Source of the DNA: Lodderomyces elongisporus
Lineage: Eukaryota; Ascomycota; Pichiomycetes; Serinales; Debaryomycetaceae
Direction of reading: 5' to 3'
Assembly: GCF_030384665.1 (NCBI RefSeq)
Contig: NC_083679.1
Coordinates: 434,001 to 498,000 of the forward strand
DNA: 64,000 bases
Shown here: in pieces, positions 53,143-64,000 of the stretch
Numbering within the stretch: the first letter of the stretch is position 1
How the letters are laid out: every line of letters begins with the position of its first letter
Made by a program: the position numbers and the translations under genes
Notes under the pieces: generated by a model
The model's database searches: none
What the model saw: only the letters and a program-made list of their open reading frames with translations
What the model was told of the DNA's origin: nothing

Positions 53143-53458
53143 ATTGTATGTTTGGATGCAAGTTGGCTCAACATTGCCTACAGCCTTATACATCCTGCAA
53201 TGCATCCTATCTCCACAAACAATTCTCGACTCGTTCACAGCAGCTCACGTGCGCGCACACATACACATACTCCAACCCGAGATACTCCAGTTTACAATGA
53301 CAGCGATTGCGCGAAATATACAGAACGTTCAATTTGAGAAATAATTTGTAGGCTGAGTGCGAAATAGAAAAATGGTTCAATTACAAATAGCAGAGTGCAT
53401 ACAAAAACAGAAAGGTGTGTTAATATTAAAAAAAAAGTGCAAAGATTAATAGCAGGAA

Positions 53459-53907
53459 CAGCAACACCATCAGCAACACCATCAGCAACACAACCAGCAA
53501 CACAACCAGCAACACAACCAGTGACTCAACCAGTAACTCAACCAGTAACTCAACCAGTGACACAACCAGTAACTCAACTAGTAACTCAACCAGTGACACA
53601 ACCAGTAACTCAACTAGTAACTCAACCAGTGACACAACCAGTAACTCAACCAGTGACACAACCAGTAACTCAACTAGTAACTCAACCAGTGACACAACCA
53701 GTAACACAACCAGTGACACAACCAGTGACACAACTAGTAACTCAACTAGTAACTCAACCAGTGACACAACCAGTGACACAACCAGTAACTCAACTAGTAA
53801 CTCAACCAGTAACACAACTAGTAACTCAACCAGTAACTCAACCAGTGACTCAACCAGTAACACAACCAGTAACACAACCAGTGACACAACCAGTGACACA
53901 ACCAGGA
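53459..53907 (+). repeat. 12-bp coding minisatellite, unit 1 (TQPV)n
   Basis: Tandem 12-mers, first GCAACACCATCA types, then ACTCAACCAGTA, ACACAACCAGTG and ACTCAACTAGTA variants. The plus strand is open as (A/V)TQP-type repeats (53395-53952, 185 codons, no ATG start) and also in a second frame as Ser/Thr/Asn-rich sequence. The only nearby ATG (53372) is in a third frame that reaches a run of nine A (53428-53436) and stops soon after. One-base slippage there would join it to the repeat frame. Confidence 0.85.
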
Positions 53908-54162
53908 ATAACACCAGAAACATTTTTGACAAGTTTAAATGGCATAGTTTGAGTTTGGTCGACGTCGGATAGCACACACTATAATAAATATGTTGGATAT
54001 AATAAATATGATAAATATGATAAATATTAGTGGTGCTATTCCAACACGAGCAAACAATGATTTTGATGCAACATTAACAGACCCCGGAAGCAGATTCCAC
54101 AAGCTTTTCTTCTGCACCATCTGAAACAACTTGCACGGTGACTTATACAACTCAACCTGTGA

Positions 54163-54760
54163 TTATATGATCCCGCTGTGCCTTGTTGATACCCCTAGTG
54201 CATATGCGTCCTCGACATTTTTCGTCCCCCGTACAAGATCATACGACAAAGGCGCCATTTTGTCGCAGGATCTGCCAAGTTCAGAATAAATGTGTGAGTC
54301 AGCAGCTACACTAGTGCAATGTTGTGGTAGGCTATGGGAAACGGTAGCAGAGGTCAGTGGGCTCCCCTGCTTTGGGATCATGGTTGGGTTTGTGATATAG
54401 TCATCCGTGAAGCAGCAACAGAGGTAACATCAGAAATAGCATCAGTGACAGTATCGGTGGTAGCTTTAGACAGAGAAGGGAATTTCTAAGGACCATATCA
54501 AGCAACTCTGGGCGGGACGAGATCACCTTATTGAAGGCTTCTTCTGTGACCTGCAGTATGGGGACCCTCTTATAAAGTGTAATGAAGTCGCCCTCAGAAT
54601 GGCTCTTAGTTCCCAGTTTAGTGCTATTCATGTAATGGATGTCTGCAAAGTTAACTGCAGCTCAGATCTATTGGCACAATTCACCGCAGTATGAATCGAC
54701 GGGAGTCTTAAACTTGTCAAAGTGGAAGAAATTGATGTTTTTCTGGTTAATATTGTTTTT
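54163..54760 (-). pseudogene. Decayed gene, unit 1, unknown family
   Basis: The minus strand looks protein-like in pieces. From about 54760, NINFFHFDKFKTPVDSYCGE meets in-frame TAG (54668-54670) and TGA (54662-54664), then continues as MNSTKLGTKSHSEGDFITLY to a stop near 54401. A second frame gives SKATTDTVTDAISDVTSVAAS, and a third gives DDYITNPTMIPKQGSP to the stop at 54163. Switching frames and stops within about 600 bp suggest one gene broken by indels. I do not recognise the family. All copies share the same lesions, so decay preceded amplification. Confidence 0.4.
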
Positions 54761-54802
54761 ATTTTTAGTTTGTGTTGTGTTTTTCGTGTTTTGTGTTTCT
54801 TT

Positions 54803-54820
54803 TGTGATATCGATATCACA
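54803..54820. repeat. 18-bp perfect palindrome at the stop codon, unit 1
   Basis: TGTGATATCGATATCACA is fully self-complementary and contains the TGA stop (54816-54818) of the Q/L-rich gene. The copy in unit 2 is at 59506-59523. Confidence 0.85.
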
Positions 54821-62202: not shown

Positions 62203-62490
62203 TTGCGTGTTGATTATTCCAGCAAGTCTGGTGCGAATTTACAGGGAAACATTTTTCTACTGAAGTTTGAGGAAAACTGTGGGCTCAGCTACTCCCTCCC
62301 CTTCTCCCCGCCCCATACATTTACATCATATAGGCCGGGTTCCAGGTTGAACCCTACGTTGGATCCTATATCAGTTCTAGAACATAGGGGGAATTGTGCT
62401 CCTATCAATGCTGCTGCCCACTGTAGTGGTTTTTGTAAAGTTTTATGTAAAGTTTTTTGTAAAGTATACACGCACCCGCGCGTCCATCTT

Positions 62491-62622
62491 ATGTGTATCT
62501 AACCTGTACCTTACCTGTATCCTACCTGTATCCTACCTGTCTCCTACATGTGTCTTACGTGTATCCTACGTGTATCCTACGTGTTTCTTACGTGTATCCT
62601 ACGTGTATCCTACGTGTATCTA
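62491..62622 (+). repeat. 11-bp tandem repeat, unit 3
   Basis: Same repeat and variant order as in unit 2. Confidence 0.85.
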
Positions 62623-62858
62623 AGGTTGACTCGTTCACAGCAGCTCACGTGCGCGCACACATACACATACTCCAACCCGAGATACTCCAGTTTACAATGA
62701 CAGCGATTGCGCGAAATATACAGAACGTTCAATTTGAGAAATAATTTGTAGGCTGAGTGCGAAATAGAAAAATGGTTCAATTACAAATAGCAGAGTGCAT
62801 ACAAAAACAGAAAGGTGTGTTAATATTAAAAAAAAAGTGCAAAGATTAATAGCAGGAA

Positions 62859-63343
62859 CAGCAACACCATCAGCAACACCATCAGCAACACCATCAGCAA
62901 CACCATCAGCAACACCATCAGCAACACCATCAGCAACACAACCAGCAACACAACCAGTGACTCAACCAGTAACTCAACCAGTGACACAACCAGTAACTCA
63001 ACTAGTAACTCAACCAGTAACACAACCAGTAACTCAACCAGTGACACAACCAGTAACTCAACCAGTGACACAACCAGTAACTCAACCAGTAACTCAACCA
63101 GTGACACAACCAGTAACTCAACTAGTAACTCAACCAGTGACACAACCAGTAACTCAACTAGTAACTCAACCAGTGACACAACCAGTGACACAACCAGTAA
63201 CTCAACTAGTAACTCAACCAGTGACACAACCAGTAACTCAACTAGTAACTCAACCAGTAACACAACTAGTAACTCAACCAGTAACTCAACCAGTAACTCA
63301 ACCAGTGACACAACCAGTAACACAACCAGTGACACAACCAGGA
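62859..63343 (+). repeat. 12-bp coding minisatellite, unit 3
   Basis: The open frame (62795-63388) is 197 codons, one 12-bp repeat shorter than unit 2. The three ATPS-type repeat counts and the GTGACA/GTAACT variant order differ between units. Confidence 0.85.
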
Positions 63344-63598
63344 ATAACACCAGAAACATTTTTGACAAGTTTAAATGGCATAGTTTGAGTTTGGTCGACG
63401 TCGGATAGCACACACTATAATAAATATGTTGGATATAATAAATATGATAAATATGATAAATATTAGTGGTGCTATTCCAACACGAGCAAACAATGATTTT
63501 GATGCAACATTAACAGACCCCGGAAGCAGATTCCACAAGCTTTTCTTCTGCACCATCTGAAACAACTTGCACGGTGACTTATACAACTCAACCTGTGA

Positions 63599-64000
63599 TT
63601 ATATGATCCCGCTGTGCCTTGTTGATACCCCTAGTGCATATGCGTCCTCGACATTTTTCGTCCCCCGTACAAGATCATACGACAAAGGCGCCATTTTGTC
63701 GCAGGATCTGCCAAGTTCAGAATAAATGTGTGAGTCAGCAGCTACACTAGTGCAATGTTGTGGTAGGCTATGGGAAACGGTAGCAGAGGTCAGTGGGCTC
63801 CCCTGCTTTGGGATCATGGTTGGGTTTGTGATATAGTCATCCGTGAAGCAGCAACAGAGGTAACATCAGAAATAGCATCAGTGACAGTATCGGTGGTAGC
63901 TTTAGACAGAGAAGGGAATTTCTAAGGACCATATCAAGCAACTCTGGGCGGGACGAGATCACCTTATTGAAGGCTTCTTCTGTGACCTGCAGTATGGGGA
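63599..64000 (-). pseudogene. Decayed gene, unit 3 (cut by window edge)
   Basis: Third copy of the same remnant. The frame 63599-63817 is identical to the units 1 and 2 pieces. The rest runs off the right edge. Confidence 0.38.

Follow-up and report, generated by a model that had tools for sequence, protein, structure and literature searches.

The C7 array and its repeat unit

The window analysed here is a 64,000-nucleotide stretch of the Lodderomyces elongisporus genome (C7:434001–498000), the right end of which lies in a tandem array whose units were each read as one gene and a spacer (Table 1). The head-to-tail copies described in the first-pass annotation are present, the third of them running past the end of the window, and they are as similar outside their repeats as had been stated: units 1 and 2 differ at 55 aligned positions, 54 of which lie within repeats and one outside. 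The events invoked to account for the differences in length were also recovered, that of 466 bp as ∼460 bp absent at the left edge, where 53143–53235 is followed by the equivalent of 57883, and those of 48 and 42 bp as gaps of 36+12, 15+30 and −3 bp between units 1 and 2 (net 90 bp). Homology at the left edge begins at ∼53143, with 53143–53235 matching 57332–57424 at 91% identity over 93 bp. A cytochrome P450 gene ends at 52884, 259 bp from this edge, and a class-II tRNA synthetase gene begins 524 bp beyond the right end of the array.

The window holds only the left edge of the array, which continues in the contig to 16 units. Fifteen of these are 4508–5019 bp long and the last, without the end of the spacer, is 3969 bp. 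Apart from their repeats, the C7 units are almost identical, and their similarity does not rise with adjacency (Mantel r 0.06, p 0.29). For window positions 53000–58000, Rfam gave three matches, each under its gathering score. A search of NCBIfam gave a single weak match (E 0.15).

The genome of strain NRRL YB-4239 (GCA_030384665.1) comprises 16,086,460 bases in eight contigs (C1–C8; C3 has 2,328,861), which are described as gapless, assembled from PacBio HiFi reads longer than 20 kb and consistent in size with the karyotype (PMC10586162). Open reading frames were read with table 12, that of CUG=Ser yeasts. The arrays exceed the read length, which could favor their being produced by the assembly. 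However, the 16 C7 units are all unequal in length and the HiFi contigs are gapless, with karyotype-consistent sizes, so such an artefact is most improbable. Copy numbers given below are read from the assembly and their exact values could be off.

Table 1. Features of the C7 array within the window (window positions) and of the family across the genome (contig positions)
Feature	Position	Strand	Remarks
Left edge: diverged unit piece and junction to unit 1	53143–53227	+	matches 57332–57424
Unit 1	53228–57882	+	4655 bp
12-bp minisatellite, unit 1	53459–53905	+	
Conserved 3′ core block, unit 1	54025–54445	+	94–100% identical across units compared
Unit 1 gene	54816–56900	−	694 aa: leader MPFFNNCFQNVF, 117-bp repeats, poly-Q-rich C-terminal part
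Triplet repeat, unit 1	54848–55313	+	poly-Q-rich coding on minus strand
117-bp in-frame repeats, unit 1	55647–56286	+	
Upstream region of unit 1 gene	56901–57288	−	92–94% identical in nearest C5 and C6 units despite different bodies
11-bp minisatellite, unit 1	57748–57875	+	
Unit 2	57883–62627	+	4745 bp
Core block, unit 2	58728–59148	+	C7:492728–493148
Unit 2 gene	59519–61645	−	708 aa
Unit 3	62628–64000	+	cut by window end (4508 bp in contig)
Core block, unit 3	63461–63881	+	C7:497461–497881
C2 left array	2182.7–2297.6 kb		30 core-word matches
C2 right array	2303.5–2402 kb		29 core-word matches
C3 array	549.4–619.8 kb		13 C7-type units and 2 of minor type
C3 second array	659–665 kb		2 minor-type units
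C4 array	755.7–789.7 kb		10
C5 array	1297.4–1342.5 kb		12
C6 array	773.1–820.8 kb		12
C6 solo copy	C6:913079–914653		∼92 kb from C6 array; 93% identical to C5 type
C7 array	C7:487228–561969		16 units, 74.7 kb
C8 array	∼748–775 kb		7, plus 167-residue frame at start
C8 solo copy	872.8 kb (C8:872764)		similar to C6-type unit
C8 second array	896.7–935.4 kb		8

The gene of the C7 unit

The claim that the unit carries an intact, lineage-specific gene was upheld, as the frame is open and relatives of the protein came from L. elongisporus only in a protein search with ∼8000 candidates scored. Three such searches across the family, each with ∼8000 candidates scored, returned L. elongisporus proteins and one protein from a 2102-base ENA contig. 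The frame is open in all 16 C7 units and encodes 633–761 aa, with identical first and last 12 residues. Genome-wide, the first 212 residues have 37 matches (16 on C7, 13 on C3 and 8 on C8), every one of them free of stops. The corresponding 212 codons occur as two sequences in the 16 C7 units, one in 12 of the 13 C3 units and three in four of the eight C8 units, and none of these 32 units contains a stop there. Since the lengths of the repeats are multiples of three, the frame is retained in part automatically. The 167-residue frame at C8:747750 is a broken copy. Two NCBI proteins of NRRL YB-4239 that derive from very similar units have differing predicted C-termini, so the public gene annotation looks inconsistent.

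A family of arrays on seven chromosomes

A 21-base word from the core block has 145 matches in the genome (102 on the forward and 43 on the reverse strand) and a 15-base word from the same block has 144, with no match for the control of either word (for the 21-base word, its reversed sequence). Positions were taken for the first 100 matches of each word, those on C6–C8 coming from other searches, and in this way all 102 forward and 41 of the 43 reverse core-word matches were placed. The family consists of ten arrays, each with the core word, and a further two solo copies. Seven of the eight chromosomes carry it, and it occupies 560.6 kb, or 3.5% of the genome (some limits are approximate). On C1, there was no core word among the matches listed and no array in the body-type searches. 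The locus had been proposed as a young tandem amplification. The tandem amplification stands, but a single young locus does not, since the C7 array is one of ten and the gene bodies are deeply diverged between arrays.

Gene-body types and resemblance to phosphoinositide kinases

Several types of gene body can be told apart. One is of low complexity (C7, C3 and C8), and kinase-like types bear a weak resemblance to phosphatidylinositol-phosphate kinases. The C5 type is stop-free in 12 of 12 matches. The C4 type has nine matches at 42% identity, six of which cross two TAA codons that probably lie at the C-terminal end. For the C2-right type, all 27 long matches (42–44% identity; residues 1–450 of the 517-residue query) are stop-free, and the outer end of that array contains fragments at C2:2398553–2401894, one of them with a TAA. 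The C6 type, matched in pieces, is stop-free in 12 of 12 units, and a similar unit opens the C4 array and forms the C8 solo copy. The C2-left type is stop-free in 30 of 30 matches on C2 and 7 of 7 on C8 within the short stretch that was matched. Counts for the C5, C4, C2-right and C6 types are floors, as 83 of 201 candidates were scored. Types are thus shared between chromosomes. Over their first 37 residues, the C5 and C7 types are 76% alike, with no match seen beyond, and the C7 type appears to be a low-complexity protein placed behind a leader similar to that of the kinase-like types.

The C5 protein matches Pfam PIP5K (PF01504) with an E-value of 0.0017 and 18.1 bits, under the cut-off of 27 bits. 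Matches to this profile within the arrays reached 19.8 bits in a genome search, all of them under the cut-off, and a sub-cut-off match was also obtained in 1 of 14 control genomes. In a phmmer search of the PDB, the C5 protein matched PI5P4K beta with an E-value of 1.3e-5 (i-Evalue of the best single stretch 0.0061), its segments aligning to residues 67–206 and 232–263. Clear PF01504 matches in the genome are found at C2:1950754–1951650 (344.6 bits), which is probably MSS4, and at C1:3023779 (120.4 bits, in a 2829-residue frame). The C5 type, for which the comparison with PI5P4K beta was made, differs from PIP kinases in having Tyr for the Lys of the IIKT-like motif and Gly for the Asp of MDYSLL. 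We take these two residues to be catalytic in PIP kinases, and their replacement suggests a pseudokinase; the kinase-like proteins are probably non-catalytic relatives of phosphoinositide kinases. An AlphaFold model of a kinase-like protein was poor (pLDDT 37.8). The C5 and C6 proteins have a visibly hydrophobic C-terminal end, from which one might guess at membrane anchoring.

Conserved flanks and selection

The upstream region, compared among C3, C5, C6, C7 and the C8 array at 896–935 kb, is 99% identical to that of C7 on C3, 90% on C8 (an insertion and 3 mismatches), 92% in the nearest C5 units and 93–94% in the nearest C6 units; more diverged C5 and C3 copies are 84–88% identical. The core block is 100% identical to that of C7 on C8, 98% on C4, 94 and 97% on C2, 95% on C6 and in the C3 minor type, and 94% on C5. 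The bodies of the C5 and C6 genes have a dS of 0.92 and a dN of 0.41 (p 5e-11; repeats included). The flanks may either have been exchanged between chromosomes or be constrained more strongly than synonymous sites.

Between C7 and C3, the first 212 codons differ by 4 synonymous and 1 non-synonymous changes (Fisher p 0.008), and there are 5 and 3, respectively, between C7 and C8 and 1 and 2 between C3 and C8. The segment after the repeats of the C7 type has 0 synonymous and 0–1 non-synonymous changes. Two C6 units that were compared differ by 10 synonymous and 15 non-synonymous changes (p 0.017). The C7–C3, C6 and C5–C6 values suggest purifying selection on the unit proteins, whereas the C3–C8 and C7–C8 values and the segment after the repeats count against it, so that few changes speak for selection in the C7 type.

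A diverging body (dN 0.41) next to a leader and an upstream region that are conserved, types that are specific to arrays, and the restriction of the relatives found to L. elongisporus and the 2102-base ENA contig (∼8000 candidates per search) could be expected of selfish ampliconic genes engaged in meiotic drive or chromosome rivalry, in which conflict would drive both copy number and body type in a spore-forming yeast. Ascospores and recombination have been reported in L. elongisporus, according to the part of the source available (PMC10294660), which would fit. However, nothing seen pointed directly to a poison or an antidote and dN is lower than dS, so that we consider this explanation rather unlikely.

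Array ends and the spread of the arrays

The left ends of the C3 (549417), C4 (755662), C5 (1297445) and C6 (773072) arrays share one organization, in which an unrelated flank is followed by an LTR-like element and then by the unit from the equivalent of window positions ∼53347–53353. The element is 454 bp long on C3 and C4; on C5 and C6 it is 82% identical and is followed by ∼30 other bases. One junction is common to C3 and C4 and another to C5 and C6. At the right end of the C3 array, the unit breaks off at this same point and a further copy of the element follows; CTGAA/CTGAG on the two sides match the expectation for a 5-bp target duplication. The element is dispersed in the genome (113 candidates, of which 40 were scored), is often paired and has TG...CA ends on C4; it may represent an LTR. 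Because common LTR–unit junctions lie in unrelated flanks, we infer LTR–LTR recombination as a route of spread. The C7 array and its flanks, the C8 edges and the inner C2 edges examined yielded no such element.

Related units on seven chromosomes and the left-end junctions shared by C3/C4 and C5/C6 would also be expected of a mobile element that has ends of its own. However, scanning the main unit ORF and two minor ones revealed no mobile-element family, in line with the first-pass annotation, which had recognised no genes of this kind. In addition, the shared left part is itself the dispersed element (40 scored of 113 candidates), and the right ends have no fixed terminus, falling at window equivalents 57292 (C7), 57374 (C8), 57460 (C6) and 57587 (C5). 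A mobile unit is thus very unlikely.

To the left of the C3 array (C3:538001–546642) are retrotransposon ORFs with gag and reverse transcriptase domains (Pfam) and a sub-cut-off protease; they carry a 2.7-kb inverted duplication that is 93% identical. The second C8 array is flanked by two RNase H1 genes (C8:895243–896208 and C8:936410–937417; RNase_H and Ribonuclease H1 N-terminal domains), which are related to each other (66.6% DNA identity over 515 bp).

Position of the arrays relative to centromeres

Loci on the same chromosome lie within ∼220 kb of each other despite their differing types (p 0.0001 against random loci, n=12, 200,000 draws, in a post hoc test that treats loci as independent). 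On C2, two opposed arrays of ∼100 kb each surround 5.9 kb (C2:2297564–2303507) without an ORF longer than 85 aa, across which GC skew runs from −0.15 to +0.10 with a switch near 2299.4 kb. This ORF-poor stretch and its skew switch make a pericentromeric role conceivable. Gaps without an ORF of 150 aa to the left of the C5, C6 and C3 arrays have skew steps of 0.34, 0.36 and 0.27; for three further gaps the steps are −0.16, 0.09 and 0.01. In the portion of Koren 2010 available (PMC2924309), skewed DNA between long repetitive DNA is remarked on for two scaffolds, and two more are said to have one long repetitive region each, which would agree with such a role.

These observations could mean that the arrays are a pericentromeric satellite that marks centromere-proximal zones and helps to form centromeric chromatin, with coding secondary. 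However, the expectation of one locus per chromosome is not borne out, as C1 has no core word among the matches listed and C8 has two separate arrays. The C7 array has no centromere core, and P450 and tRNA synthetase genes lie 0.26–0.52 kb from its ends. Orientation is mixed, outward on C2 and inward on C3 and C8. The skew step at the C8-right gap is only 0.18; ORFs lie between gap and array on C5 and C6, the C3 gap contains ORFs of 108–143 aa, and all three gaps are incomplete at the edge of the sequence analysed. In the part of Ola 2020 available (PMC7263194), the centromeres of L. elongisporus are described as consisting for the most part of unique sequence, which also counts against a satellite. 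We regard the pericentromeric reading as possible but doubtful, although it would be compatible with a multigene family and does not exclude one. Its more specific form, in which the arrays would be protein-coding, rapidly diversifying satellites around centromeres and the 5.9-kb C2 segment centromere 2, is slightly more doubtful still.

Two candidates were set aside: window positions 36417–40909 (4.5 kb, no ORF of 150 aa) as the C7 centromere, where the skew step is only 0.09, and the use of unit orientation to tell on which side the centromere lies, which fails on C3 and C8. According to the available part of the same source (PMC7263194), C. parapsilosis centromeres are gene-free regions of 5.8–7.1 kb with inverted flanks, an arrangement that the C2 locus resembles. 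Each C. parapsilosis chromosome has one such region, in which the inverted repeats are short and Cse4 has been demonstrated, whereas the flanks of the candidate region in L. elongisporus are gene arrays that differ in type and are opposed in orientation, an arrangement seen on C2 only.

A probable species-restricted multigene family

The explanation that we favor, and consider probable, is a multigene family that is restricted to this species and has been amplified into giant tandem arrays. Each array would be homogenized by unequal exchange and gene conversion, recombination between retrotransposon LTRs would have moved some arrays to new chromosomes, and selection would retain the unit proteins. 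The many copies may be retained for dosage, through chromosome rivalry or for a role in the chromosome. The arrays share head-to-tail amplification with rDNA and CUP1, which are tandem gene arrays that undergo homogenization, but differ from them in occupying many chromosomes and in having divergent bodies within a shared frame.

A PIPKc family of L. elongisporus with 5 tandem repeats and up to 13 members (CGOB cluster 280) was reported in 2010, in the part of the source available (PMC2880306), as absent from the other Candida genomes compared. It is probably the same family, being tandem, from the same species and with a kinase-like domain. In contrast to that description, we find ∼140 units in ten arrays, a common core and upstream region, a non-kinase body and LTR junctions. 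Searches of the open-licence PMC literature on L. elongisporus found no account of the scale of the arrays, the C7 type or the arrangement.

In summary, ∼3.5% of a small yeast genome consists of one gene family, so far found in L. elongisporus only, whose members have mostly open frames and common flanks and yet bodies that are deeply different between arrays. The family offers a test case for the spread of large gene arrays and the maintenance of their homogeneity, for selfish or dosage selection, and for a possible attraction of such arrays to centromere-proximal zones, given that the centromeres of this species are predicted, not mapped, in the portions of the literature found.
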